Source: Clostridia bacterium
GTDB taxonomy: Bacteria > Bacillota > Clostridia > Oscillospirales > CAG-272
Reading direction: 5' to 3'
Length of the DNA: 35,335 nt
NCBI GenBank assembly: GCA_017961575.1
Contig: JAGCXA010000036.1
Coordinates: forward strand, 1-35,335
Shown: positions 2,675-28,522 of the stretch, one piece after another
Layout: every line of letters begins with the position of its first letter
Numbering within the stretch: position 1 is the stretch's first letter
The notes under the pieces: model-generated
The model's database searches: none
What the model was told of the DNA's origin: nothing
Seen by the model: the letters and a program-made list of their open reading frames with translations, nothing else
Position numbers and translations under genes: made by a program

Positions 2675-3448
2675 TCACCTTTCTTTGGTTTTCGTGTTTT
2701 TCGTCAGATCCTTCACGACCTCCCCCGCGATCAGCAACCCCGCGACCGACGGGACGAACGCAACGCTGCCCGGTATATCACGCCGTTCGGTACATTTGTG
2801 CTTTGCTCCGGGAGGACAAATACAGTGTGTCCGACAACTGATCGACATATCCTCGATGGGTCTTGTCGGCTGTTCTTCCGAATAGACGACCTTCAGTTTT
2901 TTCACGCCGCGCTTTTTCAGTTCCGTGCGGATCACCCTCGCGAGAGGGCACATCCGTGTTTGGTATATATCCGCGACGCGGAACTGACTGCCGTCCAGTT
3001 TGTTGCCCGCGCCCATACAGCTGATGATCGGCACGTTGTGCCTTTGCGCCTGCATGACAAGTTCGAGTTTCGCCGAGACCGTATCGACCGCGTCGACGAC
3101 GTAATCGTACTCGTCAAACGGAAACTCGTCCGCATTTTCCGGCAGGAAAAAGCATTTGCGCACGGTGATCTCCGCATCGGGATAGATTTCCAGCATACGC
3201 TCTTTCATCACGTCTGCTTTGTACTGTCCCACCGTTTTTCTGGTGGCGATGATCTGGCGGTTCAGGTTCGTCAGGCAGACCTTGTCGTCGTCGATCAGAT
3301 CGAATTTGCCCACGCCGCTTCGTATCAGCGCCTCGCAGACGTAGCCGCCTACGCCCCCGATGCCGAAGACCGCCACGCGGCTCGACTGCAATTTTTCGAT
3401 CGCTTCTTTTCCGATAAGAAGCTGTGTTCTTGAAAACTGATTCAACAT
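2675..3448 (-). CDS. tcdA: tRNA threonylcarbamoyladenosine dehydratase-like E1 protein (TcdA/ThiF family)
   Basis: The 257-residue protein has the ThiF/MoeB/E1 adenylating fold. It has the nucleotide-binding FGIGGVGGY near residues 28-36, DDDKVCLTNLNRQ, and the DAVDTV and SCMGAGNK segments. The N-terminus (SRTQLLIGKE) and C-terminus (GSVAFVPSVAGLLIAG) match the TcdA/CsdL branch rather than ThiF or MoeB. That family makes the cyclic form of t6A37 in tRNA by ATP-dependent dehydration. A cysteine group near residue 207 (CRTHCICPPG) may bind a metal, which is inference. It is the first gene of the operon, behind the promoter at 3572-3600, with AAGGG about 7 bases before the ATG. Together with the PP-loop and rhodanese gene downstream it suggests a tRNA-modification or sulfur operon. 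Confidence 0.9.
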   Translation of the reverse strand: MLNQFSRTQLLIGKEAIEKLQSSRVAVFGIGGVGGYVCEALIRSGVGKFDLIDDDKVCLTNLNRQIIATRKTVGQYKADVMKERMLEIYPDAEITVRKCFFLPENADEFPFDEYDYVVDAVDTVSAKLELVMQAQRHNVPIISCMGAGNKLDGSQFRVADIYQTRMCPLARVIRTELKKRGVKKLKVVYSEEQPTRPIEDMSISCRTHCICPPGAKHKCTERRDIPGSVAFVPSVAGLLIAGEVVKDLTKNTKTKER

Positions 3449-4737: not shown

Positions 4738-5589
4738 TTACTTTTTGAATCCCAGCAGTTCCGCCGCGTTATCCCAGAGGATCTTTTTCCGGTCGGCGTC
4801 GGAGAGCGGAATGTCGAAGAAGGCGTCGAGCACCTTGCCCGGCTCCCACATCGGGAAGTCGGTGCCGAAGAGCACGCGCTCCGCGCCGTAGCGGTCGATG
4901 ATCTCCCGCGCCTTCTCCGACCCGATATACGGGGTGCCGGAGTCCGGCACGTCGTACCCGGCGCCGAGGTCGAGCGAGGACGAGCAGTCCACCCACAGGT
5001 TCGGGGTGCCGGCAAGTTCGATGCTCGCCTGCTCCCAGATCGACCAGCCGCCGAAATGCGCGCCGATCAGTTTCAGGGTCGGGTGGCGTTTCAGCAAAGG
5101 GATCAGCCGATTGGGGTTGGAATTGTCGTAGCGCACGTCGCCCGTGTGCATCAGCATCACGAGACCTGCGTCCGCGACGGCGTCGTACATTTTGGCATAT
5201 TGGGGCAGATCGATCTGAAACCCCTGGATGTCGGGATGCACTTTGACGCCCTGCAACCCGAGGTCGACGAGGTGACGGACGTCCTCCTCGATGGTTTCGC
5301 TCTCGGGGTGGAGCGTGCCGAACCCGACGAGCAGGTCGGGATACTCGGCGACCTCGCGGGCGATGAACTCGTTGATGCTCTTGACCTGTTTCGGGGTCGT
5401 GGCGACCGAGTGAACGAGCGAGCCGTCGATGCCCGCCGCCCGACTGCGTTCGAGCAGGTCGGGCACCGTGCCGAGACAGTCGGCGGTACTGCCGTAAAAA
5501 TGATCGGTGCCCGCCACCGCCTTCGCCGCGATCTTTTCGGGATAGATGTGACAATGCGCGTCGAAAACGCGGAAACCTTTGCGACCCAT
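4738..5589 (-). CDS. Amidohydrolase-2 family metal-dependent TIM-barrel hydrolase
   Basis: The 283-residue protein has the amidohydrolase-2 (ACMSD-like) pattern. It has an N-terminal HCH metal motif in FDAHCHIYPEK, GVKVHPDIQGF, MLMHTGD, IGAHFGG with a likely metal His, and a C-terminal FGTDFPMW carrying the conserved Asp. Members are decarboxylases or hydrolases of small carboxylates and lactones; the substrate here is unknown. Its ATG overlaps the stop of the TIM-barrel/AMP-ligase fusion gene (TAATG), so the two are translationally coupled. It is the last gene of the operon behind the Leu-type T-box. That placement suggests a step linked to leucine or isovalerate metabolism, but nothing in the protein proves this. 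Confidence 0.8.
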   Translation of the reverse strand: MGRKGFRVFDAHCHIYPEKIAAKAVAGTDHFYGSTADCLGTVPDLLERSRAAGIDGSLVHSVATTPKQVKSINEFIAREVAEYPDLLVGFGTLHPESETIEEDVRHLVDLGLQGVKVHPDIQGFQIDLPQYAKMYDAVADAGLVMLMHTGDVRYDNSNPNRLIPLLKRHPTLKLIGAHFGGWSIWEQASIELAGTPNLWVDCSSSLDLGAGYDVPDSGTPYIGSEKAREIIDRYGAERVLFGTDFPMWEPGKVLDAFFDIPLSDADRKKILWDNAAELLGFKK

Positions 5590-8111
5590 TACGCCGTTAC
5601 CACCTTGCTGGCTTTTTCAAGCCCCAGTTTCTTGATCGCGTCCTCGCGCATCTTGTACTTTAAGATCTTTCCGGCGACGTTCATCGGGAAAGAGTCGACG
5701 AAGTCGACGTACCGCGGCACCTTATGGCGCGCCATATGCGAGTTGACGTATTCCTTCATTTCCTCGACGGTCATGGTTTCGCCCTCTTTTAAGATGACGC
5801 ACGCCATGATCTCCTCGCCGTACTGCTCGTCGGGAACGCCGATCACCTGCACGTCCTGAACCTTCGGGTGCGTGTAGATGAATTCCTCGATCTCCTTCGG
5901 GTAGATGTTCTCACCGCCGCGGATGATCATATCTTTGAGCCGTCCCGTGATCCGGAAGTTGCCTTCCTTCGTCCGGGCGGCGAGGTCGCCGGTATGGAGC
6001 CATCCGTCGGCGTCGATCGCCGCGGCGGTCGCTTTCGGCATCTTGTAGTAGCCCTTCATGATGTTGTAGCCGCGCGCGACGAATTCGCCCGTCACCTCGT
6101 CGGGACATTCCTCCCCGGTTTCGGGATCGATGATCTTACATTCGATCTCGGGCATCGGGCGTCCGACGGTGCCGACGCGCACCTCGATCGGGTCGTCGGT
6201 CGACGACATCGTGCAGCCGGGCGACGCCTCGGTCTGCCCGTAGACGATCGTGATCTCGGTCATGTGCATCTTTTCGACCACGTCCTGCATCACCGAAATG
6301 GGGCAGGGGCTTCCCGCCATGATCCCGGTCCGCATATAGGAGAAATCGGTCTTCGGGAAGTCGGGATGACCGAGCAGGGCGATGAACATAGTCGGCACGC
6401 CGTGGAAGGCGGTGATGTGTTCGTTGTGGATGCAGGCGAGCGCGGGTTTCGGGGAGAAGTAGGGAAGCGGGAGCAGGGTCGCGCCGTGCGTCATCGACGC
6501 CGTCATCGCGAGCACCATGCCGAAGCAATGGAACATCGGCACCTGGATCATCATCCGGTCGGCGGTCGACAGATCCATACGGTCGCCGATGCACTTGCCG
6601 TTGTTGACGATGTTCCGGTGGGTCAGCATCACGCCCTTCGGGAATCCGGTCGTTCCCGACGTGTACTGCATATTGCAGACGTCGTCGGGCGAGACCTTCG
6701 CCGCCATCCGGCGGAGTTCCTCGGCGGGGACGCGCTCTGCGTAAGCGAGCGAGTCCTCCCAGGTGAGGCACCCCTTCTGACGGAATCCGACCGTGATCAC
6801 GTTGCGAAGGAAGGGCAGACGCCGCGCGTGGAGCTGCGCGCCGGGTTTCACCGAGGCGAGTTCCGGGCAGAGTTCCGCCATGATGGCGGCGTAATCCGAG
6901 TCGCGGAAACCCTCGACCATCACGAGCGTGTGGGTGTCGGACTGTTTCAGCAGGTATTCCGCCTCGTGGATCTTGTAGGCGGTGTTCATCGTGACCAGCA
7001 CCGCGCCGATCTTGGTCGTCGCCCAGAAGGCGATGTACCATTGCGGCACGTTGGTCGCCCAGACCGCGACGTGATGCCCGGCGCGCACGCCGAGCGCGAT
7101 CAGCGCCCGCGCGAACTCGTCGACGTCCGCCCGGAATTCGGTATAGGTGCGGGTATAGTCGAGGGTCGTATAGCGGAAGGCGTACTGATCGGGGAACTCC
7201 TCGACCATCTTATCGAGCACGTCCGGGAAGGTCGCGTCGATGAGTAGATCCTTTTTCCACGGGAAGTTGCCGGTGTGCGCCCGGTTCCAGTAGAGGGTGC
7301 GTTCGTTCTTCCGGGGATCGGAGAACTGTTTCATATACCCCTCGAACTGCGCGAGCACGATCTCCATATCGTCCAGTTCCGGGCACCACGCGGGATCCCA
7401 GACGAGCGACAGGAACCCGTCGTAGTTGACCGAGCGGAGCGCGCGCATCACGTCGGAAAACGGGATCTCGCCCTCGCCCATCAGGACGTGTTCACAGCCG
7501 CCTTTTGTCCGCTTGACGTCCGAGAAATGGACGTGCCGGATATAGGCGCCGAGGTTGCGCACGACGGTTTCGGGATCGTCGCCGCCGACGAGATAAGCCT
7601 CGGCGACCTCCCAGAGCGCGGCGAGCCGATCGGAGGCGAACTGTTCGAGAATGTCGCGAAGCACCTCGGTTTTCGCAAAAACCCCCGACGTTTCGAGCAG
7701 AATGGTGACACCCTCCGCTTCCGCTTCGGGAAGCACCGCTTCGATCAGCGCCGCGGTCTTCACGCGCGCCTCGTCGGCGTTGCGGGAGTCGGTGCGGACG
7801 CGGAGCATCTGAATGCCGAGGTCTCCCGCGATCGAGAGACAGCGCAGGATCTCGTCCTTCGCCTGCTCGATCGGGGTCGCCGCCGGGTCGGACAGAACGT
7901 CCAGACACGGGAGCGACAGTTTTCTGTCGAAGAGCCGGCGTTTGGTCGCCGCCGCGGCGCGACCGTAGAACGCCCCGTCGCGGTCGGTGAAGAGCGAGCC
8001 GTTTATGTTGTGCAGTTCAATGCCCGAAAAGCCGGTCGCCTCCGCCATATCGCAGAGCGAATCGAACGATCTGCCGTGCCAGCCCTTCGTTGAAAATGAG
8101 AGTTTCATCAT
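5589..8111 (-). CDS. Fusion: sugar-isomerase-like TIM barrel + acyl-CoA synthetase (AMP-forming)
   Basis: The 840-residue protein joins two domains. Residues 1 to about 275 form an AP-endonuclease-2/xylose-isomerase-like TIM barrel (GFSGIELHN, LLETSG with Glu140, YIRHVHFSDVK). From about 290 to the end lies a full acyl-CoA synthetase: YTSGTTGFPKGV at 483-494, YGQTEASP, GWLHTGDLA, GRLKDMIIRGGENIYPKEIE, and a C-terminal GKILKYKMR with the catalytic lysine. The ligase half should activate a carboxylate with ATP and CoA. In the barrel, two places where I expect metal ligands look changed: WEVAE at 167-171, and SLVWDP near 237 where a Glu is usual. The barrel may therefore be non-catalytic. The start overlaps the LeuA-like stop (ATGA), with GAGGA 6 bases upstream. 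Activation of isovalerate for leucine synthesis is inferred from the Leu T-box. Confidence 0.85.
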   Translation of the reverse strand: MMKLSFSTKGWHGRSFDSLCDMAEATGFSGIELHNINGSLFTDRDGAFYGRAAAATKRRLFDRKLSLPCLDVLSDPAATPIEQAKDEILRCLSIAGDLGIQMLRVRTDSRNADEARVKTAALIEAVLPEAEAEGVTILLETSGVFAKTEVLRDILEQFASDRLAALWEVAEAYLVGGDDPETVVRNLGAYIRHVHFSDVKRTKGGCEHVLMGEGEIPFSDVMRALRSVNYDGFLSLVWDPAWCPELDDMEIVLAQFEGYMKQFSDPRKNERTLYWNRAHTGNFPWKKDLLIDATFPDVLDKMVEEFPDQYAFRYTTLDYTRTYTEFRADVDEFARALIALGVRAGHHVAVWATNVPQWYIAFWATTKIGAVLVTMNTAYKIHEAEYLLKQSDTHTLVMVEGFRDSDYAAIMAELCPELASVKPGAQLHARRLPFLRNVITVGFRQKGCLTWEDSLAYAERVPAEELRRMAAKVSPDDVCNMQYTSGTTGFPKGVMLTHRNIVNNGKCIGDRMDLSTADRMMIQVPMFHCFGMVLAMTASMTHGATLLPLPYFSPKPALACIHNEHITAFHGVPTMFIALLGHPDFPKTDFSYMRTGIMAGSPCPISVMQDVVEKMHMTEITIVYGQTEASPGCTMSSTDDPIEVRVGTVGRPMPEIECKIIDPETGEECPDEVTGEFVARGYNIMKGYYKMPKATAAAIDADGWLHTGDLAARTKEGNFRITGRLKDMIIRGGENIYPKEIEEFIYTHPKVQDVQVIGVPDEQYGEEIMACVILKEGETMTVEEMKEYVNSHMARHKVPRYVDFVDSFPMNVAGKILKYKMREDAIKKLGLEKASKVVTA

Positions 8112-9487
8112 CCGTTTTCCTCGTATACGATCTTGTTGACGGCGTTCAGGTAAGCCCGGATCGCCGCGCCGAGAATGTCGGTCGAAACGCCGTTGCCCGA
8201 ATAGAGTTTGCCCGCCGAGCGGAGCCGGATCAGCGCCGATCCGACGGCTTCCTGCCCTTCGGTGATCGCCTGGATCTTGAAATCGTCAAGTTCGTAGCGG
8301 TGCCCGATCACGTTTTCGAGCGCGCGGAACGCCGCGTCGATCGGACCGTCGCCGATGGCGACGCCGTGCAGCGATTTGCCGTTCGCCGACAGCGTGATCT
8401 GCGCCGACGCCGAAATGATATTGCCGGAGTTGATGACGTAATTGTCAAGTTGATAGGTCGCGGGGACTTGCAGGGCGGCGCTGGCGATGATCGCTTCGAG
8501 TTCGCGTTCGCCGACCGTCTTCTTCCCGGCGACCCGACGCACCTCGTCCGAGACGAGCGCGAGGTCTTCGTCCGAGAGGTCGTAGCCCAGCCGCGCGACG
8601 GCGGCGGCGATCGCCTCGCCGTCCGACGAGGGATCGAGCGCGATCACGCCTTCGCTTTCGGACTTTGCGGCGCCTGTCGGCGCGGCGTCCTTGCGTTCGC
8701 CGCCGATCCACTCGATCTGGCGGACGGTGCGGTGCAGTTCGGTGACGGCAAGACGGGAGGAAAGACCGAGATCTCCCCCGCGGTTGCGGATCAGGTCGGA
8801 GAAGGTCGCGAGGTCGGTGACGTCGCCGCCTACGGCGGTCTTGACGCCGGCGGCTTTCCCGCGCACCGAGAGCAGCGAGCAGGCGACCGCAAGACCGTTC
8901 AGATCCGACGCGCAAACGAAGACCGGGACCCCGGCGGCGTCGGCGATCCGCGAAACGAACGCGGCGAAATCGTCCGGCATCATCGAGGCGGCGGTATCGG
9001 TCAGCGTGACGCATCCGGCGCCCGCCTCGACGGCGGCTTTGACCGCGTCGCAGAGGAACGCTTCCTCGGCGCGGGTCGCATCACACGCCTCGAACTCGAC
9101 GTCGGGGACGGCGGCTTTCGCCTGCCCCACGATCTCGCGGATGTATTCGATCATCTTCTGCGGCTTCTTATGCGCCGTATATTCCATCCCGACGGGCGAG
9201 AGGGGAAGCGCGATGCGGATCCGTCCCTTTTTCGCGGCGGAGAGGGCGTCGGCGGCAAGCCGGACGCTCTCGGCGTCAAGCCCCGCCTCAACCGAGACGA
9301 CGGCGTCGGAAACGAAGGCGGAAAGCGTCCGCACGCAGAGCGGATCGGCGCGCGCGTCCTTCACGGGCGGCAGCTCGATCACGTCCACCCGGACTTTTTC
9401 CAGGAGACGCGCGATCTCCAGTTTCTCCTTGAAACTGTACTTGCGCTCGGATGAGAGCGTGCGGTCGGAGATGACGATCTGTTTCAT
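8108..9487 (-). CDS. LeuA-like protein with degenerate catalytic centre and LeuA regulatory domain
   Basis: The 459-residue protein resembles 2-isopropylmalate/homocitrate synthases: an N-terminal TIM barrel (ISDRTL at 6-11, FEACDATR, LTDTAASMMPDDF) and a C-terminal LeuA dimer/allosteric domain (about 340-455, YQLDNYVINSGN to STDILGAAIRAYLNAVNK). The catalytic core is altered. The usual DxTLRDGxQ reads DRTLSSERK, and the HxHND metal site reads CASDLNG at 192-198. The GERxGN segment is not visible. It is therefore unlikely to be an ordinary isopropylmalate synthase. It is the first gene after the Leu-specific T-box, with AAAGGA 6 bases before the ATG, and overlaps the fusion gene. In true LeuA the C-terminal domain binds leucine, so a leucine-sensing or altered-substrate role is possible. 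Confidence 0.75.
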   Translation of the reverse strand: MKQIVISDRTLSSERKYSFKEKLEIARLLEKVRVDVIELPPVKDARADPLCVRTLSAFVSDAVVSVEAGLDAESVRLAADALSAAKKGRIRIALPLSPVGMEYTAHKKPQKMIEYIREIVGQAKAAVPDVEFEACDATRAEEAFLCDAVKAAVEAGAGCVTLTDTAASMMPDDFAAFVSRIADAAGVPVFVCASDLNGLAVACSLLSVRGKAAGVKTAVGGDVTDLATFSDLIRNRGGDLGLSSRLAVTELHRTVRQIEWIGGERKDAAPTGAAKSESEGVIALDPSSDGEAIAAAVARLGYDLSDEDLALVSDEVRRVAGKKTVGERELEAIIASAALQVPATYQLDNYVINSGNIISASAQITLSANGKSLHGVAIGDGPIDAAFRALENVIGHRYELDDFKIQAITEGQEAVGSALIRLRSAGKLYSGNGVSTDILGAAIRAYLNAVNKIVYEENG

Positions 9488-9510
9488 GGTTTGTCCTTTC
9501 TTTTCGCTTC

Positions 9511-9780
9511 GGAAAACAAAAGTCCCCGAAGCCGGATTTCGGCTTCAGGGACGATCAAATAATCGCGGTACCACCCTGATTCCCGTCTTTGACGGGCGCT
9601 CGTCGGATACTTTCATATCCTTTGCCTTGGTAACGGGGCAAGCCGTAACCGCCTACCCCTTCCGGCTCGGCGATTCTGCTCGGGAGTGAGAGTTCTGTCT
9701 CCTGCGCCCCCGGCTTGCACCAACCGCCGGTTCTCTTTGCGCGCTTTCTTCGATGGAACGGTTCCGTCATCGCATTTATG
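9511..9780 (-). promoter_or_regulatory. T-box leader, leucine specifier (CUC)
   Basis: The minus-strand leader has AGGGTGGTACCGCG (9577-9564), whose UGGU can pair with the ACCA end of an A73 tRNA. A terminator follows with arms 9522-9535 and 9540-9552 and the U-run TTTTGTTTT. In Stem I, UGC/GCA pairs below the kink-turn and GGA/UCC above it. The codon one base before CUCC is CUC (9690-9688), with GAA just upstream. The distal loop reads GGTTGGTGCAAGCC. Uncharged tRNA-Leu should therefore permit read-through into the LeuA-like operon. The specifier was read by hand; UCU would be the main alternative. Confidence 0.85.
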
Positions 9781-9786
9781 CATAAG

Positions 9787-9815
9787 ATTATAGCACAACC
9801 CCCCCGCTTTGTCAA
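9787..9815 (-). promoter_or_regulatory. Promoter of the Leu T-box operon
   Basis: A consensus TTGACA (9815-9810) and TATAAT (9792-9787) are 17 bases apart on the minus strand, with transcription expected to start near 9780. Confidence 0.85.
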
Positions 9816-9909
9816 CCGTGATTTGAAATTTTTTTATCAAGCGTGAAAAACCGCGGAAAATCGGGGCAAAACGGCTCTTCAAAAGGTCGTGCAGACGAAA
9901 AACGGAACG

Positions 9910-9943
9910 AAAAAAGCGCCCGTTCGTTTGCTCGAACGGGCGC
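9910..9943 (-). terminator. Terminator of the Val operon behind ilvE
   Basis: Eleven-base perfect arms (9916-9926 and 9933-9943, GCGCCCGTTCG and its complement) enclose a 6-base loop. On the minus strand the stem is followed by six U. It lies 16 bases after the ilvE stop. Confidence 0.9.
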
Positions 9944-9959
9944 TTTCGCTGCTGTTGAA

Positions 9960-11027
9960 TTATTTGTCGACGGGCATCGTCCAGCCGAAGGGATCGGCGA
10001 TCTTGCCCCATTGGATCCCGGTCAGAGTATCGTAGAGGTGCTGGGTGACCTCGCCGATCTTCCCGCCGTTGACGGTGTATTTCACGTCCTTGTAGCAGAG
10101 TTCGCCGATCGGCGAGACGACGGCGGCGGTGCCGCAGCCCCACGCCTCTTCGAGCGTTCCGTTCTTCATCGCGGCGGCGAGTTCGTCGACCGAGAGCAGA
10201 CGCTCCGAGACCTTATATCCCTCTTTTTTCAGGATCTCGATGCAGGATTTCCGGGTAACGCCGGGCAGGATCGAGCCGGAGAGCATCGGGGTGACGATCT
10301 CGCCGTCGATCTTGAACATCACGTTCATCGCGCCGACTTCCTCGATGTACTTCCGCTCCACACCGTCGAGCCAGAGGACCTGGGAATACCCCTTCTCCTC
10401 GGCGCGCGCGCCGGCGCGGTTGGACGCGGCGTAGTTGCCGCCGCACTTGGCGTAACCGGTGCCGCCTCTGACGGCGCGGACGTCCTGATCCTCGATCATG
10501 ATCTTGACCGGGTTGATCCCTTCCTTATAGTAGCTTCCGACGGGGGAGGCGATGATGAGGAAGGTCGCGTGATGCACCGAATGCACCCCGAGGTTTTCGT
10601 CGTTTCCGAACATAAACGGGCGCAGATAGAGCGACGTGCCGGGCGCCGACGGCGTCCAGTCCTCCTCGGTCTTGACGAACGCGAGCAGGATCTCAAGCGC
10701 CACGTCCTCCGGGATCTGCGGTAAGCAGAGCCGTTCCGCCGAGTTGTTCATCCGGCGGATGTTCTCGGTCGGGCGGAAGAGCTGCACTTTTCCGTCGGCG
10801 CGGCGGTACGCTTTCAGCCCCTCGAAGATCTCGGAGCCGTAGTGGAGCGCGGTGCAGGCGGGATGGATCGACAGGGGACCGAACGGAACGATCCTCGCGT
10901 CGTGCCAGCCCTTTTCGGGCGTGTAGTCCATCATGAACATATGATCGGTGAAGATCCGACCGAAGCCGAGCGTCGAGGGATCGGGCTTGGCTTTCTTTTC
11001 TTTCACGAGTTGATACTTGATTTCCAT
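9960..11027 (-). CDS. ilvE: Branched-chain amino acid aminotransferase
   Basis: The 355-residue protein is a fold-type IV PLP transaminase of the longer BCAT branch. It has a FEGLKAYRRADG segment, LYLRPFMFG, the PLP lysine Lys194 in GYAKCGGNYAAS, EEVGAMNVMF, and SGSILPGVTR, a phosphate-binding turn. It interconverts Val, Ile and Leu with their 2-oxo acids using glutamate/2-oxoglutarate. The length is normal for the family. It is the last gene of the Val T-box operon, 13 bases after the vor gamma gene and directly before a strong terminator. Coupling with the 2-oxoacid:ferredoxin oxidoreductase genes suggests that 2-oxo acids made from acyl-CoA are aminated here. T-box control favours the biosynthetic direction. 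Confidence 0.93.
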   Translation of the reverse strand: MEIKYQLVKEKKAKPDPSTLGFGRIFTDHMFMMDYTPEKGWHDARIVPFGPLSIHPACTALHYGSEIFEGLKAYRRADGKVQLFRPTENIRRMNNSAERLCLPQIPEDVALEILLAFVKTEEDWTPSAPGTSLYLRPFMFGNDENLGVHSVHHATFLIIASPVGSYYKEGINPVKIMIEDQDVRAVRGGTGYAKCGGNYAASNRAGARAEEKGYSQVLWLDGVERKYIEEVGAMNVMFKIDGEIVTPMLSGSILPGVTRKSCIEILKKEGYKVSERLLSVDELAAAMKNGTLEEAWGCGTAAVVSPIGELCYKDVKYTVNGGKIGEVTQHLYDTLTGIQWGKIADPFGWTMPVDK

Positions 11028-11040
11028 CGTTTCCGCTCCT

Positions 11041-11576
11041 TTACTCTTTGTAGTTCGCGCCGAGCTGCATGGCGCGCAGGTTGACCTCGAGCATATCCGC
11101 GTGACGCGCCGAGATGACCTTGCCGAGCGCCGCCTTGATCCCCTCGTCGGAGAACTCCCCGCGGTCGGAGAGGATCTTGCCGAGCAGGATCATGTTGGCG
11201 AGGGTCGGAAAGCCGTTCTCGCTCGCCAGTTTGGTGGCGGGAACGCCGACGGCTTTGACGTCGTTCCGTTTGACCTTCCGCTCGATCAGGGACGAGTCGT
11301 AGTAGACCGAGCCGCCCGGCACGACCGCCGATTCAAAGCGGTCGAGCGAGGGGAGGTTCATCGCGACCAGAACGTCGGGGTTCGAGACGATCGGCGAACC
11401 GACCTGTCCGTCGCTGACGATGACCGAGCAGGAGGCGGTGCCGCCCCGCATTTCGGGTCCGTACGAAGGCAGCCACGAGACCTGTTTATCCTCGATCAGC
11501 CCCTTGTAGGCGACGAGTTTCCCGATGAACAGGATGCCCTGCCCGCCGAAGCCCGAGAACAGATATTTCGTCGTGC

Positions 11577-11580
<4 letters not shown>
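11041..11580 (-). CDS. vorC: 2-oxoacid:ferredoxin oxidoreductase, gamma subunit
   Basis: The 179-residue protein has the gamma-domain pattern of the POR/VOR/KOR family: [16 protein letters not shown] near the N-terminus, [13 protein letters not shown], and NPDVLVAMN. This subunit helps bind CoA and completes the alpha-beta-gamma-delta enzyme. Its ATG overlaps the stop of the beta gene (ATGA), which implies coupled synthesis. The order delta, alpha, beta, gamma is a recognised arrangement of four-subunit 2-oxoacid oxidoreductases. Isovalerate-type (VOR) specificity is inferred from the adjacent ilvE and the branched-chain T-box; from sequence alone a 2-oxoglutarate enzyme is also possible. The gene symbol is therefore provisional. 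Confidence 0.85.
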
Positions 11581-12334
<754 letters not shown>

Positions 12335-12335
<1 letters not shown>

Positions 12336-13402
12336 TAGTTTTCACCTCCGTTAGCGGCAGACTTGATGGCTTCGAGCACCTGTTCCGGGGTCGGGATCAT
12401 CCCGCCCGCGCGGTTGCAGAGCGTGACGGGGCGGCGGCATTCGGTCGAAAGCCGGACGTCCTCGATCATCTGCCCCATATTGAGTTCGACCGAGATATAC
12501 TTTTTCACGGTCGAAAGGGATTTCTTGAAGGTCTCTTTCGGGAAGGGCCAGAGGGTGATCGGGCGGATCATACCGACCTTGATCCCCATCTCGCGCGCCG
12601 CGTCGACGGCGTTGCGCGAAACGCGGGACGCGATCCCGAAGGCGGCGACGCAGATCTCGGCGTCCTCCATCCGGTATTCCTCGGCGCGGGCTTCCTCGCG
12701 CTCGATCTTCGCGTACTTCTCGTAGCGGGCGAAGTTGAACTGTTCGAGTTCCTCGGGGACGAGCGAGAGGGAGTTGATGATGTTGCGTTTCCGCTCCATC
12801 TTGGTCCCCGTGGTCGCCCAGGGTTTCTCGGGCATCGGATTGATTTTCAGGTCGTCGAGGGCGACCGGCTCCATCATCTGCCCCATCGTGCCGTCGGCAA
12901 GAAGCATCGAGGTCATCCGGTATTTGTCCGCGAGATCGAACGCCGAGACGGTCAGTTCCGCCATCTCCTGTACCGAGGCGGGGGCGAGAACGATCATACG
13001 GAAGTCGCCGTGTCCCGCGCCGCGGGTCGCCTGGAAGTAGTCCGACTGGCTCGGCTGGATGCCGCCGAGTCCGGGTCCGCCGCGCTGGACGTTCACGACC
13101 AGAGCGGGAAGGTCGGCGCCGGCGAGGTAGGAGAGCCCTTCGCCTTTCAGCGAGATCCCGGGGGAGGAGGACGACGTCATCACGCGAAGCCCCGCCGACG
13201 CCACGCCGTAGACCATATTGATCGCGGCGATCTCGGACTCGGCTTGAAGAAACGTTCCGCCGATCTTCGGCATCCGCTTCGCCATGTACGCGGCGATCTC
13301 GGTCTGCGGGGTGATCGGGTACCCGAAGTAGTGACGGCAGCCGGCGCGGATCGCCGCTTCGGCGATCGCCTCGTTGCCCTTCATCAGCACTTTCTTTTCC
13401 AT
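12335..13402 (-). CDS. vorB: 2-oxoacid:ferredoxin oxidoreductase, alpha subunit (VorB-type)
   Basis: The 355-residue alpha subunit starts [18 protein letters not shown] and has the family's [41 protein letters not shown] and [10 protein letters not shown] blocks. These form the 2-oxoacid-binding and domain I/II regions. It matches the VorB annotation class (3-methyl-2-oxobutanoate:ferredoxin oxidoreductase), close to KorA. It follows the ferredoxin subunit by 2 bases and overlaps the beta gene, so all four vor genes form one translational block. The partner enzymes in the operon (acyl-CoA synthetase before, BCAT after) support branched-chain substrates. Confidence 0.9.
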
Positions 13403-13404
13403 CG

Positions 13405-13617
13405 TCAGACTCCTTTCTCTACCTCAATGATGCAGTCGGGGCACATCGTCGCGCAGAAAGCGCAGGCGATGCAGAGGTCGGGTTTCACCGCCGTAACGGG
13501 GTGATGCCCCTTCTTGTTGATGATGTCCTCGGCGAGCGCCAGTACCCCTTTCGGGCAGACGTCGACGCAGAGCCCGCAGCCCTTGCAGTTGTCGGTGCGG
13601 AAGGTCAACTTGTTCAT
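13405..13617 (-). CDS. vorD: 2-oxoacid:ferredoxin oxidoreductase, delta (2x[4Fe-4S] ferredoxin) subunit
   Basis: The 70-residue protein carries two cluster motifs, CKGCGLCVDVCP and CIACAFCATMCP, the classic C-x2-C-x2-C-x3-CP pair of a bacterial ferredoxin-like delta subunit. It passes electrons between the TPP centre and free ferredoxin. The ATG at 13617 is chosen because AAGGAG lies about 8 bases upstream; an in-frame GTG three codons earlier would abut that site. It lies 33 bases after the ATPase gene and 2 bases before the alpha subunit. Confidence 0.92.
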   Translation of the reverse strand: MNKLTFRTDNCKGCGLCVDVCPKGVLALAEDIINKKGHHPVTAVKPDLCIACAFCATMCPDCIIEVEKGV

Positions 13618-13650
13618 ATGCAGCACTCCTTTTCGTATGATCGATTTGTT

Positions 13651-14313
13651 TTATCCGATCTTTTTTTGCAGATCGAGCGGGAAAAGATCGGGGATCTTCC
13701 CCGAAAGCGCGGGATAAACCCCCCGGTCGACCGTCGTCATCACGACGGGCAACCCGGTCAGGCGGCTGACCTCCGCGGCGTAGGCGAGCGAATCGAGCAC
13801 GTCCTCCGGGGTGGTCTCGCGTCCGACGTTCGAGTTATTGACGAGCCCGGTGATCGGCACGCCTCCGGCGCCCTCGATCTCGCGCAGGACCTCGACCGTA
13901 TCGGCGGGCGTCCGCGTCAGGGGACGGTAGCGGTTGACGACGGCAAGACACGCGAAGTCGTTTTCCGCGAGGATCGCCGGGGTCAGCCGACCGAGCGCCA
14001 GCGCGCCGCGGTCGTCCCCGCCGACGTCGAGGATCGCGGTCAGGTTCTTATCGTCGGTGACGGCGTACATCTCCTGCGGAAGCGCCGGGATGTCGAGGTT
14101 CCCGCCCGCGTAGGGCGAGGCGATCAGCCGCACGCCCGCCGCTTCGAGATCGGCGAGACTGTCCTTCGAGCGGAAATAGGGGTTCACGATATCAAGGTCG
14201 GCAAGCGCGACGGGATTTCTCGTCTTCGCGAGCGCGATCGCGTAGTTGACGGCGATGTTCGTCTTCCCGCTTCCGTAATGCCCGACGAAGAGCGTGATCC
14301 GTTTGACTTTCAT
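13651..14313 (-). CDS. P-loop (SIMIBI/ParA-like) ATPase of unknown role in the vor operon
   Basis: The 220-residue protein has Walker A GHYGSGKT at 11-18, a LADLDIVNPYFRS switch-like segment, and ILDVGGDDRGA as a Walker B-type region. This resembles SIMIBI-class ATPases (MinD, ParA, CooC, HypB relatives) but lacks a clear deviant-Walker signature lysine. It has no membrane anchor. It sits 12 bases after the acyl-CoA synthetase and just before vorD, with GGAGGG ahead of the ATG, and is surely cotranscribed. A role in metal, Fe-S or cofactor delivery to the oxidoreductase is possible by analogy only. No function is known to me for this exact family. Confidence 0.75.
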   Translation of the reverse strand: MKVKRITLFVGHYGSGKTNIAVNYAIALAKTRNPVALADLDIVNPYFRSKDSLADLEAAGVRLIASPYAGGNLDIPALPQEMYAVTDDKNLTAILDVGGDDRGALALGRLTPAILAENDFACLAVVNRYRPLTRTPADTVEVLREIEGAGGVPITGLVNNSNVGRETTPEDVLDSLAYAAEVSRLTGLPVVMTTVDRGVYPALSGKIPDLFPLDLQKKIG

Positions 14314-14325
14314 TCCGCCCTCCGA

Positions 14326-16626
14326 TCAGAGTTTGTTTCTCTGGATCTTTCCGGTCGAGGTCTTCGGCAGACTGTCGCGGAAGACGACGATCCGGGGATA
14401 TTTGTAGGGGGCGGTGTTCTTTTTGACGTAGTTCTGGATCTCTTTCTTCAATTCCTCGGTCGGCTCGGTGCCGGGGACCAGCACGATGCTCGCCTTGACG
14501 ACCTGACCCCGGACGGGATCGGGTTCGGGAGAGACGCCGCATTCGAGGACGTAGGGAAGTTCCATAATCACCGACTCGATCTCGAACGGCCCGATGCGGT
14601 AGCCCGACGATTTGATCACGTCGTCGATGCGTCCGACGTACCAGTAGAAGCCGTCCTCGTCGCGCCACGCCGTGTCGCCGGTGTGGTAGTAGCCGTCGTG
14701 CCAGACCTCGCGGGTCTTCTCCTCGTTCCGGTAGTACCCGGTGAAAAGACCGCAGGGGGCGCCGTCGGAAACCTTCACGACGATCTCTCCGGTTTCGCCG
14801 ACCGGGACGGGCTTGCCGTCGGGGTCGAGCAGGTCGACGTCGTAGATCGGGGCGGGCTTGCCCATCGAGCCGATCTTATGCGGCGCGCCGATCAGGTTGC
14901 CGATGATCATCGTGCTCTCGGACTGTCCGAATCCCTCGCGGATCTGTAACCCCGTCGCTTTTTCAAACTGGCGGTAGACCTCGGGGTTCAGCGCCTCGCC
15001 CGCCGTCGTCATATGGCGGACGGAGGAGAAGTCGTATTTCGAGATGTCCTGCTTCACCATCATCCGAAGGATGGTCGGCGGCGCGCAGAAACTGGTGATG
15101 TGGTACTTGGCGAACATCGGCAGGATGTCGGCGGCGTCGAAACGGTCGAAGTCGTAGACGAAGATCGCCGCCTCCGAGAGCCATTGTCCGTAGAGTTTGC
15201 CCCACATCGACTTCGCCCATCCGGTGTCCGAGATGGTCAGGTGCAGTCCGTCGGGATCGACGGCGTGCCAGTATTTCGCGGTATGGAAATGACCGAGGGC
15301 GTACTTGTAGTTGTGGGTCGCGATCTTCGGGTAGCCCGACGTTCCCGACGTGAAGAACATCAGCATCATATCGTCGCCGCCCGGCGCGTCGCTCTTGCGC
15401 TCGTAGTGCGAACTGTAAAGCGTGTACTCCTCGTTGAAGTTGCGCCAGCCCTCGCGTTCGCCGTTCACGATCAGTTTGTGCTTCAGGGACGGGCACTTCT
15501 CGGCGGCAAGATCGACCTGATGCGCGGTGTCGCCGTCGGCGGTGCAGAGGATCGCCGAAACGCCCGCAGAATCAAAGCGGTAAACGAAGTCGTGTTCCTG
15601 CAACTGGTTGGTCGCGGGGATCCCGATCGCGCCGAGTTTGTTCAGCCCCAGGATCGCGTACCAGAACTGGTAGTGGCGTTTCAGCACCAGCATCACGCGG
15701 TCGCCCTTCTTGATCCCGAGCGACTTGAAGTAGTTGGCGCATTGGTTGGAGCCGCGTTTCAGATCCTTGAAGGTGATCCGCCGTTCGACCTTTTCACGGT
15801 CGACGTGGAGCATCGCCAGTTTGTCGGGCGACTTCTTCGCGATCTCGTCGATCACGTCGAAGGCGAAGTTGAAATGCTCGGTATTCTTGAACGTGATCTT
15901 CGTCGGGGTGCCGTTTTCGTTCTCCTCGACGTCGACGAACCGGCGGTAGATCATCCCCGTCTCGTCGCGTTTCGGTTCGGGTTTCGCGGGTTCGGACTGC
16001 GCCGCCTTATCCGGGGAGAGTTCGGGGATCGGTTCGCCCGTGGGGTTCAGAACGATGGCGTAGAAGGTGCAGTCGCGTCCGCCGACGGCGATCATCCCGT
16101 GCGGCGACGAACTGTCGTAGTAGATCGAGTCGCCGGGGTTCAGGACTTCGCGGTGCGCCCCGACCTGCACGAGCAGCTGCCCGTCGATCACGAGGTCGCA
16201 TTCCTGCCCCGCGTGGGTCGTCAGCTCGATCGGCTTGTTCTGCGCCTCTTCGGAATAGGTGCTGACGACGAAGAGCGGTTCGGCGATCCGGTTGCGGAAG
16301 GCGTACGCCATATTGAAGTAGGTCATCCCGTGCGCGTGGGCGATCTGCTGTCCCTCGCCCGCCCGCGTCACGGTGCAGGATTTCAGGGTCGGGCTGTACC
16401 CCTCGATGATGTCGGTGACGTTGACCGAGAGCGCGCCGGCGCAGCGGTAGAGGAACGCGAAGTTCAGGTCGCGGTCGCCCGCCTCGCAGGCAAGGTATTC
16501 CTCGGTCGAAACGCCGGTCAGTTCCGCCATCTTTTCGGGCGTCAGGTTCTCGATCTCGCGCAGGGCGCGGATTCGCCCCGCCATCTCCCGGATGCGGGAG
16601 TCGAGATCGGTCGTTTGATTGCTCAT
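14326..16626 (-). CDS. XRE-cupin-acyl-CoA synthetase fusion (Val operon)
   Basis: The 766-residue protein has three parts: an XRE-type helix-turn-helix (about 14-75, PEKMAELTGVSTEEYLACEAG), a cupin-2 barrel (about 80-205, PGDSIYYDSSSPHGMIAVGG), and an acyl-CoA synthetase of the medium-chain branch (about 240-766). Ligase motifs are FFTSGTSGYPK, GFGQSEST, YYHTGDTAW, GRIDDVIKSSGYRIGP and a C-terminal STGKIQRNKL with the catalytic lysine. It should form an acyl-CoA from a short branched acid; isobutyrate is inferred from the Val T-box. The XRE-cupin half is built like a ligand-sensing repressor. The ATG at 16626 has AGGAG 8 bases upstream; in-frame codons further upstream fall inside the T-box. 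About 350 bases of the 3' end are nearly identical to the paralogue at 16995. Confidence 0.88.
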   Translation of the reverse strand: MSNQTTDLDSRIREMAGRIRALREIENLTPEKMAELTGVSTEEYLACEAGDRDLNFAFLYRCAGALSVNVTDIIEGYSPTLKSCTVTRAGEGQQIAHAHGMTYFNMAYAFRNRIAEPLFVVSTYSEEAQNKPIELTTHAGQECDLVIDGQLLVQVGAHREVLNPGDSIYYDSSSPHGMIAVGGRDCTFYAIVLNPTGEPIPELSPDKAAQSEPAKPEPKRDETGMIYRRFVDVEENENGTPTKITFKNTEHFNFAFDVIDEIAKKSPDKLAMLHVDREKVERRITFKDLKRGSNQCANYFKSLGIKKGDRVMLVLKRHYQFWYAILGLNKLGAIGIPATNQLQEHDFVYRFDSAGVSAILCTADGDTAHQVDLAAEKCPSLKHKLIVNGEREGWRNFNEEYTLYSSHYERKSDAPGGDDMMLMFFTSGTSGYPKIATHNYKYALGHFHTAKYWHAVDPDGLHLTISDTGWAKSMWGKLYGQWLSEAAIFVYDFDRFDAADILPMFAKYHITSFCAPPTILRMMVKQDISKYDFSSVRHMTTAGEALNPEVYRQFEKATGLQIREGFGQSESTMIIGNLIGAPHKIGSMGKPAPIYDVDLLDPDGKPVPVGETGEIVVKVSDGAPCGLFTGYYRNEEKTREVWHDGYYHTGDTAWRDEDGFYWYVGRIDDVIKSSGYRIGPFEIESVIMELPYVLECGVSPEPDPVRGQVVKASIVLVPGTEPTEELKKEIQNYVKKNTAPYKYPRIVVFRDSLPKTSTGKIQRNKL

Positions 16627-16654
16627 CGTGTATTCTCCTCTCGGCGGACGGGTC

Positions 16655-16925
16655 AAAAAACGCACCCGCCCCAAAGTTGTGCTTTGAGACGGGTGTAAAA
16701 CACTCGCGGTACCACTCAAATTGCCGTCCTGCGACGACCTCTCTTGGGATCGTGAAATCCCTATGCCTTGACGCAGCAGTCACGGGGGGGTTCTACTTGC
16801 CTTGCGGCTTTCTTCCCTCCGGCTCCGGAACTACAACCCGAAAACCGTGCCGATGGCTCGCACCTTCCGCCATCTCTCTGAGGTCGTGTTTTCCGGCCCT
16901 TTCCGTCATAGCCTTTCAAATTATG
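16655..16925 (-). promoter_or_regulatory. T-box leader, valine specifier (GUA)
   Basis: The minus-strand leader contains GAGTGGTACCGCG (16717-16705) and a terminator (arms 16664-16676 and 16682-16694, six U at 16660-16655). Stem I pairs GGCU with AGCC, then the kink-turn, then GGAA with UUCC. One base before UUCC lies GUA (16834-16832), giving a Val specifier. The AGAGA and GGAAGGTGCGAGCC distal parts are present. Its antiterminator half is nearly identical to that of the Ile leader at 19.4 kb. Low charged tRNA-Val would allow expression of the synthetase, vor and ilvE genes. Confidence 0.85.
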
Positions 16926-16930
16926 AAGGT

Positions 16931-16959
16931 ATTTTAGCACACAACGCCGGGTTTGTCAA
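16931..16959 (-). promoter_or_regulatory. Promoter of the Val T-box operon
   Basis: On the minus strand TTGACA (16959-16954) and TAAAAT (16936-16931) are 17 bases apart. It lies 36 bases after the stop of the upstream synthetase gene, with no terminator in between. Confidence 0.8.
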
Positions 16960-16994
16960 TAGGGGAGATCGAAAAAAACCGAAAAAGCCGCCCG

Positions 16995-19265
16995 TCAGAG
17001 TTTGTTGCGCTGGATCTTGCCCGAAATCGTCTTCGGCAGACTGTCGCGGAAGACGACGATCCGGGGGTATTTGTAGGGGGCTGTGTTCTTTTTGACGTAG
17101 TTCTGGATCTCTTTTTTCAATTCCTCGGTCGGCTCGGTGCCGGGGACCAGCACGACGCTCGCCTTGACGACCTGACCCCGGACGGGATCGGGTTCGGGAG
17201 AGACGCCGCATTCGAGGACGTAGGGAAGTTCCATGATGACCGACTCGATCTCGAACGGCCCGATGCGGTAGCCCGACGATTTGATCACGTCGTCGACGCG
17301 CCCGACGTACCAGAAGAAGCCGTCCTCGTCGCGCCACGCCGTGTCGCCGGTGTGGTAGTAGCCGTCGTGCCAGACCTCGCGGGTCTTTTCTTCATTTTTA
17401 TAATATCCGAGGAACAGACCGCAGGGCGGGTTTTCCCCGACACGGATCACGATCTCGCCGGTCTCGCCCACGGGGACCGGATTCCCGTCGGGATCCACGA
17501 TGTCGACGTCGTAGAGCGGACTGGGCTTGCCCATCGAGCCGATCTTGTGCGTTCCGCCGAGCAGGTTCGCGATGGAGAGGGTCGTTTCGGTCTGCCCGAA
17601 GCCCTCCATCGTTTGAAGTCCGGTCGCCCGCTCGAACTGATAGTAGACCTCGGGGTTCAGCGCCTCGCCCGCCGTCGTCATATGACGGATCGAGGAGAGG
17701 TCGTATTTCGAGATGTCCTCTTTCACCATCATCCGGAGCATCGTCGGGGGCGCGCAGAAACTGGTGATATGGTACTTGGCGAACATCGGCAGGATGTCGG
17801 CGGCGGAGAAACGGTCGAAGTCGTAGACGAAGACCGCGCCCTCGCAGAGCCATTGCCCGTAGAGTTTGCCCCAGAGCGCCTTGCCCCATCCGGTGTCCGA
17901 GATGGTCAGGTGCAGTCCGTCCTCGGACACGCCGTGCCAGTATTTCGCCGTGATGTAGTGCCCCAGCGGGTATTGGTAACTGTGGACGGCGATCTTCGGG
18001 TATCCCGTCGTGCCGGACGTGAAGAACATCAGCATCGGGTCGCGCCCGCAGGGGGTCTCCTCGGTGCGGTAGAAGTGCGCGCTGTAAAGCGGGTATTCCG
18101 CGTCGAAATCGTGCCAGCCCTCGCGGCTCCCCCCGACCAGCAGTTTGTGGTCAAGCCGTCCGACCGACGCCTCGGCAAGTTCGATCTGATTCGCCGAGTC
18201 GCCGTCGGTCGAGCAGACGATCGCCGACACTCCCGCGGACTCAAAACGGTACTCGTAGTCGTGCTTTTGCAGCTGATCGGTCGCGGGGATCGCGATCGCG
18301 CCGAGTTTGTGGAGCGCGAGGATCGAGAACCAGAACTGGTAGTGGCGTTTCAGGACCAGCATCACGCGGTCGCCCTTTTTGATCCCGATCGACTTGAAGT
18401 AGTTGGCGCATTGGTTGGACGCCCGCTTGATATCGTTGAAAGTGAAGCGGCGCTCGACCTTGTTGCGGTCGATGTGGAGCATCGCCAGTTTGTCGGGCGA
18501 GCGTTTCGCGATCGCGTCCACCACGTCGAAACCGAAGTTGAATTTGTCTTCGTTCTTAAAGGAGATCCCGGTGCAGAGCCCGTTCTCGTCCTCCTTCGTC
18601 TCGACGAACTGCTCGCCGACCGTCTTATGGGTCGGGAGGACGTTCGGCACCAGACTGCTCCGCACGACCTTCTCCTCGACGTCCTCGCCCGGCAGAACCA
18701 CCGCGACGAAGAGGCAGTCCTCGCCGCCGACGGCGATCATCCCGTGGGGGGTCGAACTGTTGTAGTAGATCGAGTCGCCCTCCGAGAGCAGTTCGGTGTG
18801 GTCGCCGACCTGCACCTTCAACTGCCCCTTCATCACGAGGTCGAACTCCTGCCCGGAGTGCTTGGCGAGGTGGATGGGTTTGTCCTGCAAATCCTCGCTG
18901 TACTCGTAGCGCACCCAGTAGGGCTCGGCGATCTTTTTGCGGAAGAAGGGCGCGAGGTTCTTGATCTCGATCCCGTCCTCCTTCGCCGTCTCCTGCCCCT
19001 CGCCCCGCCGCGTGACGGTATAGGAGGACAGATGGGCGCTCTGCCCTTCGAGCAGATCGGTAATGCCGATCCCGAAGGCGAGGGCGCATTTGTGGATGAA
19101 GGTAAAGGGGAAGTCGGTCTCGCCGTTCTCGTAGGCGCGATACTCCTCTTCCGTCACCTCGGTCTTTTTCGCCATTTCGGACACGGAACAGCCCGAAATA
19201 TCCCGCATCTCGCGGATACGGACGGCGACCTCTTTCAGCTTTTCGGTTTCGACGGTGTTTGCCAT
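16995..19265 (-). CDS. XRE-cupin-acyl-CoA synthetase fusion (Ile unit), paralogue
   Basis: The 756-residue protein has the same three-part design: HTH (about 10-70, VSEMAKKTEVTEEEYRAYENG), cupin (about 75-200, EGDSIYYNSSTPHGMIAVGG) and acyl-CoA synthetase (about 230-756) with FFTSGTTGYPK, GFGQTETT, YYHTGDTAW, GRVDDVIKSSGYRIGP and a terminal SGKIQRNKL. All ligase motifs are intact. It should activate a short branched acid; 2-methylbutyrate is inferred from its Ile T-box. The ATG at 19265 has AGGAG 6 bases upstream. It is the only gene between the Ile T-box and the next promoter, and no terminator follows, so transcripts may continue into the Val leader. The last third is almost identical to the Val-operon paralogue at DNA level. 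Confidence 0.88.
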   Translation of the reverse strand: MANTVETEKLKEVAVRIREMRDISGCSVSEMAKKTEVTEEEYRAYENGETDFPFTFIHKCALAFGIGITDLLEGQSAHLSSYTVTRRGEGQETAKEDGIEIKNLAPFFRKKIAEPYWVRYEYSEDLQDKPIHLAKHSGQEFDLVMKGQLKVQVGDHTELLSEGDSIYYNSSTPHGMIAVGGEDCLFVAVVLPGEDVEEKVVRSSLVPNVLPTHKTVGEQFVETKEDENGLCTGISFKNEDKFNFGFDVVDAIAKRSPDKLAMLHIDRNKVERRFTFNDIKRASNQCANYFKSIGIKKGDRVMLVLKRHYQFWFSILALHKLGAIAIPATDQLQKHDYEYRFESAGVSAIVCSTDGDSANQIELAEASVGRLDHKLLVGGSREGWHDFDAEYPLYSAHFYRTEETPCGRDPMLMFFTSGTTGYPKIAVHSYQYPLGHYITAKYWHGVSEDGLHLTISDTGWGKALWGKLYGQWLCEGAVFVYDFDRFSAADILPMFAKYHITSFCAPPTMLRMMVKEDISKYDLSSIRHMTTAGEALNPEVYYQFERATGLQTMEGFGQTETTLSIANLLGGTHKIGSMGKPSPLYDVDIVDPDGNPVPVGETGEIVIRVGENPPCGLFLGYYKNEEKTREVWHDGYYHTGDTAWRDEDGFFWYVGRVDDVIKSSGYRIGPFEIESVIMELPYVLECGVSPEPDPVRGQVVKASVVLVPGTEPTEELKKEIQNYVKKNTAPYKYPRIVVFRDSLPKTISGKIQRNKL

Positions 19266-19293
19266 ACGGTTCTCCTTTTTTGTGGGACAAAGC

Positions 19294-19555
19294 AAAAACC
19301 CGTCCCAAAGTTTCCTTTGAGACGGGTGTAAAACACTCGCGGTACCACTCAAATTGCCGTCTTGCGACGACCTCTTTCGGGGATCAGTCAATCCCTCTGC
19401 CTTAACGCGGCGACACGGGAGGCGCTTACTTGCTTTCGCGTTCGGCTCTCCGGCTCGGAAGGGATGGGCGTGCGGGCGATCGACCGTCGGTTTTCACCAG
19501 CCACCGACTCTCTGAAGGTTTTTCGACCCTGCCGTCTTCGTCATTGCCTTTTGAT
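19294..19555 (-). promoter_or_regulatory. T-box leader, isoleucine specifier (AUC)
   Basis: The minus-strand leader has GAGTGGTACCGCG (19350-19338) and a terminator (arms 19298-19310 and 19315-19327, then U-run). Lower Stem I pairs GGC with GCC below the kink-turn and GAAG with CUUC above it. One base before CUUC lies AUC (19465-19463), an Ile specifier. The distal loop reads GGCTGGTGAAAACC. From the sequence behind Stem I to the terminator it is nearly the same as the Val leader, which indicates duplication of leader plus gene followed by change of the specifier. Confidence 0.85.
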
Positions 19556-19561
19556 GGACAC

Positions 19562-19590
19562 ATTGTAGCACAACGCTTTTCGCTTGTCAA
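19562..19590 (-). promoter_or_regulatory. Promoter of the Ile T-box unit
   Basis: On the minus strand TTGACA (19590-19585) and TACAAT (19567-19562) are 17 bases apart. It lies 31 bases downstream of the stop of the lipoprotein gene at 19621, with no strong terminator between. Confidence 0.8.
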
Positions 19591-22956: not shown

Positions 22957-23054
22957 GGGACGTCCCCTTTCACCCGGAGCGCGCCCGCTTTTTCCGTCCG
23001 CCGACGCGCGGGGAAACGGCTCTCCGCAGACGCTCCTTTTCATCTTATATAATC

Positions 23055-27013: not shown

Positions 27014-28522
<1,509 letters not shown>

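Follow-up and report, generated by a model that had tools for sequence, protein, structure and literature searches.

Three putatively T-box-controlled operons that may make isoleucine, valine and leucine from branched short-chain acids in an uncultured Clostridia bacterium

The stretch of DNA analyzed here (the window) comprises positions 1 to 35,335 of contig JAGCXA010000036.1 (35,335 nucleotides; assembly GCA_017961575.1) from an uncultured Clostridia bacterium of the Oscillospirales (CAG-272). It holds a row of three putative operons, each preceded by a T-box leader and each with an AMP-forming ligase, together with genes for a 2-oxoisovalerate ferredoxin oxidoreductase (Vor) and the aminotransferase IlvE. 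A preliminary description, made from the sequence alone, had proposed that these operons serve to make the branched-chain amino acids (BCAA) from branched short-chain fatty acids. All T-box leaders and protein genes of the window described below lie on the minus strand.

T-box leaders turn genes on when an amino acid is scarce. An Rfam scan of the window at default cut-offs reported only a tRNA, because the three leaders score 1.4 to 12.7 bits below the gathering score of 93 for RF00230. A relaxed scan revealed the three, each covering model positions 1-219 of 219, at 19315..19553 (89.9 bits, E 1.7e-18), 16682..16918 (80.3 bits, E 4.8e-16) and 9544..9779 (91.6 bits, E 6.2e-19). All three carry the T-box core GUGGNACCGCG, in each case as GUGGUACCGCG, and the internal loop of their stem I holds a specifier. 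Specifiers were read from the Rfam stem-I alignment combined with a helix rule (GC-N2-UGA-N-helix ... specifier-N-helix-NGA-GC), giving Ile (AUC at 19465-19463), Val (GUA at 16834-16832) and Leu (CUC at 9690-9688), respectively; the rule was written on these three leaders, which therefore fit it by construction. Strong terminator hairpins, each followed by a U run, were found at approximately 19327-19298 (-22.4 kcal/mol, z -5.3), 16695-16663 (-23.4 kcal/mol, z -3.3) and 9552-9522 (-27.4 kcal/mol, z -4.8). The full-length matches and terminators thus bear out the three consecutive T-box operons of the preliminary description, and its hand-read specifiers were recovered unchanged. Across the genome, which is 94% complete at 1.88 Mb, seven T-box matches were found, including those of the window; the other four lie ahead of genes assigned by eye as valS, thrS, a sodium symporter and a TrpB-like gene.

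The Ile leader is followed by one gene, LIGI (16995..19265), and the Val leader by LIGV (14326..16626), a P-loop ATPase, VorD, VorB, VorA, VorC and IlvE. VorB, the alpha subunit (12335..13402), passed the cut-off of the 2-oxoisovalerate ferredoxin oxidoreductase model PRK07119 (547.9 bits versus 399), and IlvE (9960..11027) passed those of two branched-chain aminotransferase models (PRK13357, 483.1 versus 307; TIGR01123, 399.6 versus 250.05). The remaining subunits were assigned from their domains and gene positions, the curated cut-offs not being reached: the ferredoxin-type delta subunit VorD (13405..13617) has Fer4 domains and falls below the delta-subunit cut-offs, the TPP-binding beta subunit VorA (11577..12335) has a TPP_enzyme_C domain and scores 121.8 bits against the TIGR02177 cut-off of 261.9, and the gamma subunit VorC (11041..11580) has a POR domain and falls below the cut-offs of the family models. 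The ATPase (13651..14313) is MinD/ParA/NUBPL-like (CbiA, 26.3 bits versus a cut-off of 25.4), and its gene adjoins VorD in 74 of 76 occurrences among the 120 related loci described below; it may support Vor in assembling Fe-S clusters or in receiving electrons. A weak resemblance to the iron-transfer ATPases of the NUBPL type was seen in 23 of 24 members of its family (E <= 0.01), and a search of solved structures gave no useful match to it. Pfam and NCBIfam matches thereby confirmed the VorDBAC-type oxidoreductase, P-loop ATPase and IlvE that had been described in one operon.

The Leu leader is followed by IPMSL, a LeuA-like gene (8108..9487), APLIG (5589..8111) and an amidohydrolase (Amidohydro_2, 4738..5589) that is present in only part of the related loci. 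The expectation that every T-box operon has its own acyl-CoA synthetase held, with the ligase as first gene in the Val and Ile operons and as second gene, behind the LeuA-like one, in the Leu operon. The LeuA pseudoenzyme described below, the N-terminal domains of the Val and Ile ligases and the placing of the Leu ligase in another subfamily were all absent from the earlier account.

LIGI (756 residues) and LIGV (766 residues) are 70% identical fusions of helix-turn-helix (HTH), cupin and AMP-forming acyl-CoA synthetase domains, predicted to activate 2-methylbutyrate and isobutyrate, respectively. HTH_19 and Cupin_2 were matched at E <= 0.01 by 19 of 19 fusions scanned, the HTH_19 score of the window LIGV being 25.3 bits, below the cut-off of 30.2. 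The best NCBIfam model for both was MbcS (NF047394), at 430.2 bits for LIGV and 417.6 for LIGI against a cut-off of 850, which places both outside the family as defined. The closest solved structure for both was PDB 3etc (E 2.2e-184 for LIGV and 3.5e-185 for LIGI), which we take to be MacsMa of Methanosarcina acetivorans. In the excerpts available of PMC10455477, which cites a MacsMa structure, this enzyme prefers 2-methylbutyrate and its Trp259 is critical; in those of PMC10026030, MbcS uses 2-methylbutyrate and isobutyrate and is very poor with isovalerate, so that a separate ligase for the Leu branch fits.

Trp259 of MacsMa aligns with W475 of LIGV (landmark YHTGD at 431-435), which is invariant in 189 of 189 aligned rows. 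When ligases with a Val specifier (n = 72) were compared with those with an Ile specifier (n = 78), only 2 of 550 columns had no residue in common, and both lie near this tryptophan, four residues and one residue upstream. At the first (LIGV 471/LIGI 461) the Val form has Ala and the Ile form Gly; at the second (474/464) the Val form has Met (69), Thr (2) or Ala (1) and the Ile form Leu (78). MacsMa agrees with the Ile form at the first position (Gly) and with neither form at the second (Val). Some relatives of the ligases in other families, stand-alone or split, also occur behind T-boxes, three of them reading Val (L172, L175 and L188) and one Ile (L173). Six T-box-preceded ligases outside the fusions were compared at the 471/461 column, where the three Val-reading ones and two with no resolved specifier (L185 and L189) carry Ala.

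IPMSL retains the architecture of LeuA: all 28 members scanned have an HMGL-like barrel and a LeuA_dimer domain (E 3e-30 for LeuA_dimer in the window). The LRDG, HxH, GER and HESGIH residues presumably serve catalysis and metal binding in LeuA, and the LeuA_dimer domain presumably binds leucine. In an alignment of the window protein with 40 relatives (41 rows), the Arg of the TLRDG motif is retained in four and the Asp in none, each histidine of HCHND is found in one row and both together in none, and all 41 rows have gaps at GER and HESGIH. The GPID motif of the LeuA_dimer domain is kept (G in 41, P in 40 and D in 39 rows). A working isopropylmalate synthase was rejected on account of these changes and deletions, and IPMSL is better described as a LeuA-like pseudoenzyme with its putative leucine-binding domain retained. 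It adjoins APLIG in 40 of 41 occurrences. APLIG is a fusion of an AP_endonuc_2 TIM barrel and an AMP-forming ligase (Pfam), with PRK12583 as its best NCBIfam model (709.2 bits, below the cut-off of 832), and is predicted to activate isovalerate. Since APLIG is adjacent and a Leu T-box precedes the pair, IPMSL is perhaps a leucine sensor, the likeliest role that we found for it.

The enzymes of the usual BCAA pathway were sought in the genome. No match to ilvC (PF01450) or ilvD (TIGR00110) was found, whereas 14 of 14 control genomes were positive; ilvB and ilvA were not searched. Profile searches likewise found no true LeuA (isopropylmalate synthase) or LeuC (isopropylmalate dehydratase). There were three LeuA-profile matches, two taken as the halves of IPMSL and one on another contig, where it sits with the single aconitase-family match of the genome and an NADP-isocitrate dehydrogenase. 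This aconitase scored 972 as an aconitate hydratase (cut-off 612) and 387.2 against a generic aconitase/isopropylmalate dehydratase subfamily (cut-off 385), and no LeuC-specific model was passed. A leucine pathway was considered for these genes and rejected; because of the adjoining dehydrogenase and the lack of a LeuC-specific match, they were read instead as a glutamate operon. At locus L191 (1268-6479), a homocitrate-synthase-like gene lies with an aconitase and an NADP-isocitrate dehydrogenase, probably as a glutamate operon.

The distribution of the fusion ligases relative to ilvC was examined with Fisher tests that ignore kinship. Among 60 genomes of the genus, drawn from a larger group, 1 had both fusion and ilvC, 30 had the fusion alone, 13 had ilvC alone and 16 lacked both (p 1.4e-4); for the 19 best of them the corresponding numbers were 1, 10, 5 and 3 (p 0.041). 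Within the genus, fusion ligases and ilvC are thus almost mutually exclusive. In 117 genomes of the order, ilvC was present in 7 of 41 with the fusion and in 47 of 76 without (p 2.8e-6), a genome being counted as fusion-bearing if it had a full-length match, uninterrupted by a stop, with 54% identity or more (picked by eye), with split HTH-cupin/ligase pairs excluded. Across 299 genomes of the phylum, 38 matched the query at E <= 1e-150, and among the matches listed most cover the ligase part only.

Conservation was assessed in 120 related loci. Forty came from genomes of the order in which a fusion was matched over its full length, and 80 came from named contigs, of which 42 name a ruminant host in their titles (own count). 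Ligases were labeled LIGV or LIGI by best BLAST match. LIGV was present in 96 loci, which proves nothing by itself because the loci were chosen for a LIGV relative; both fusions were present in 75 and LIGV with VorB in 70. LIGI, LIGV, VorB and IlvE occur together in the window and in 55 of the 120 loci, some loci ending at contig ends, and 29 of these 55 also hold IPMSL. Twelve loci lack the T-box core motif. In the window and related loci together, 203 core motifs were found, and specifiers were called with the three window leaders included and with related species that are not independent. Confident calls were obtained for 76 of 85 LIGV leaders (68 Val, 6 tied between Ser and Val, 1 Ile and 1 Pro), for 78 of 85 LIGI leaders (69 Ile and 9 ties, all including Ile) and for 19 of 30 IPMSL leaders, all Leu; two of the Val calls (L039 and L042) rest on a doubtful helix. 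As a control, the threshold for a confident call was reached by 14 of 1015 shuffled windows and by 11 of 1015 random ones. In a FastTree phylogeny of the ligases, for which only local support was computed, all but one of the 72 Val rows fell in a supported set of 88, whose other 17 members had no confident call for either Val or Ile; Ile rows were absent from it. The leaders, specifiers, terminators and gene content of the window are real, and the system is widely conserved.

From these data we infer the substrates, the direction of the reactions, the extent of the operons and their regulation as follows. The window would encode an assimilatory route in which Ile, Val and Leu are made from the volatile branched acids of the gut. 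LIGI would convert 2-methylbutyrate, LIGV isobutyrate and APLIG probably isovalerate to the acyl-CoA, with ATP cleaved to AMP and PPi; VorDBAC would carboxylate each acyl-CoA reductively to the 2-oxo acid with reduced ferredoxin, and IlvE would aminate the 2-oxo acids. Uncharged tRNA-Ile, tRNA-Val or tRNA-Leu would cause read-through at the matching leader, and with charged tRNA the terminator would form; the shared ATPase-Vor-IlvE genes are probably also under the Val leader. We put the probability that branched acids are activated, reductively carboxylated and transaminated to BCAA, with each activation under the tRNA of its end product, at roughly 80%. On the sequence evidence, support for the pathway is good in the Ile and Val branches and weaker in the Leu branch. 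The pathway of the preliminary description thus gains support from the failure to find ilvC, ilvD, LeuA and LeuC, of which the first two belong to a check that it had named, from ligases nearest to MacsMa and MbcS, and from the agreement of specifier with ligase clade over many loci, in keeping with its claim that each ligase is matched to the T-box of its own amino acid.

At the protein level, leucine status may be relayed to APLIG by IPMSL, a dead isopropylmalate synthase whose leucine-binding domain is intact. A more tentative extension, to which we give rather less than even odds, is that IPMSL gates APLIG as a leucine-sensing pseudoenzyme and that the HTH-cupin-ligase fusions act as enzyme and regulator in one, signalling to DNA how much acid or acyl-CoA is present. 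IPMSL could then, as a similarly speculative history, have lost its chemistry once leucine synthesis shifted to isovalerate and kept its leucine-binding domain. If true, each branch would be under double control, with tRNA acting on the RNA and product or substrate acting on the protein.

Several observations weigh against the assimilatory route. The genome is 94% complete, with ilvB and ilvA outside the gene searches. ilvC is present in 7 of the 41 fusion-bearing genomes of the order. The scores of LIGV and LIGI are far below the MbcS cut-off. The specifier counts set aside sub-threshold calls for 8 LIGV, 4 LIGI and 8 IPMSL leaders, and one LIGV-labeled leader reads Ile (L052) and another Pro, with Val as its second-best reading (L127). 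The division into two ligase clades amounts to a single evolutionary split and not to many independent events. The stand-alone ligase behind an Ile T-box (L173) carries Leu instead of Gly in the pocket column, and the rows listed for 22 relatives, with or without a T-box, have 18 Ala, 3 Leu and 1 Gly; since Ala is commonest also without a T-box, a simple Gly/Ala rule is incomplete. Isovalerate as the substrate of APLIG is the least secure part of the pathway, as it rests on context and the Leu ligase belongs to another subfamily than the Val and Ile ligases.

It is improbable that the organism imports BCAA and that the cluster is a minor salvage route. The absence of ilvC, ilvD, leuA and leuC would also fit an auxotroph, and the 16 of 60 genus genomes with neither ilvC nor fusion point the same way and count against the assimilatory route; searches of the genome, however, found no LIVCS carrier or Liv-type binding protein, and three amino-acid-specific leaders are conserved over many loci. 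Uptake of BCAA or peptides by carriers outside the LIVCS and Liv searches is possible. Oxidative, Stickland-like use, in which BCAA would be broken down to branched acids by IlvE and Vor, with the ligases run in reverse to recover energy, has similarly little to commend it even though Vor is reversible and IlvE bidirectional: the ligases have an AMP-forming fold whose reversal would need PPi, T-box leaders turn genes on at amino acid scarcity, and the biosynthetic genes searched for were not found, so this direction was rejected as the main function. The AMP-forming ligases therefore point to acid uptake, and the preference of the preliminary description for anabolic over fermentative use is upheld. 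Least probable is that the ligases mainly serve membrane fatty acid synthesis by supplying branched acyl-CoA primers, the role that MbcS, their best NCBIfam model, has in Staphylococcus aureus according to excerpts of PMC10026030; as a main function this was rejected on account of the amino-acid-specific T-boxes and the common clustering with Vor and IlvE (VorB in 70 of the 96 loci holding LIGV), with a side role in lipids possible.

Elsewhere in the window are tandem paralogues at 19621-21447 and 21532-23043 (53% identity over 440 aligned positions), which have no Pfam match and whose starts look lipoprotein-like by eye, an ATP synthase alpha/beta family protein (27014-28522), a rhodanese and PP-loop fusion (435-1727) and a ThiF-family gene (2675-3448).

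Allison, Robinson, Bryant and Peel, in work of 1962-1971 that we know by title, reportedly described a branched-acid carboxylation route in rumen anaerobes. As cited in the part seen of PMC7356843, isovalerate gives Leu, 2-methylbutyrate Ile and isobutyrate Val in the rumen; according to a study of Prevotella bryantii, formation of BCAA from branched acids by the reverse reaction still awaits proof (PMC7709123, in part). T-box control of BCAA synthesis is known in Bacillales and Clostridia (PMC2494555, in part). The terms "acyl-CoA" and "CoA ligase" were absent from the portions searched of three T-box texts (PMC2494555, PMC3766115 and PMC11477304). The partial texts found on T-boxes with acyl-CoA synthetase, ferredoxin oxidoreductase or ketoisovalerate, or on branched-acid carboxylation, contained no description of the system, and none gave the genes and control for the branched-acid route. 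Within that literature, then, the chemistry has been known from the rumen since the 1960s, and the gene set, its wiring and the pseudoenzyme appear to be new. The cluster would mark uncultured gut bacteria that depend on branched acids, and the specifier codon would serve as a built-in label of the acid used by each ligase, making acyl-CoA ligase function predictable and testable.

The acid-to-amino-acid conversions put forward here are those of the rumen route of 1962-1971, for which a gene set and RNA control, in uncultured Clostridia, are now proposed. The leaders share specifier, core and terminator with the BCAA T-box leaders of Firmicutes and would differ in controlling acid activation by ligases, with one leader for each acid. 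LIGV and LIGI share the ligase domain with MbcS and MacsMa, and the pocket Trp with MacsMa; 2-methylbutyrate is a substrate of both known enzymes and isobutyrate of MbcS, whereas the window ligases have N-terminal HTH and cupin domains, putative T-box control and separate Val and Ile forms. Known chemistry and a known RNA switch are thus joined in a combination undescribed in the portions of the literature searched. Its most unusual part is IPMSL, which has the HMGL-like barrel and LeuA_dimer domain of LeuA but has the catalytic Arg/Asp, HxH, GER and HESGIH changed or deleted, and which would be a biosynthetic enzyme converted to a sensor for its replacement pathway.

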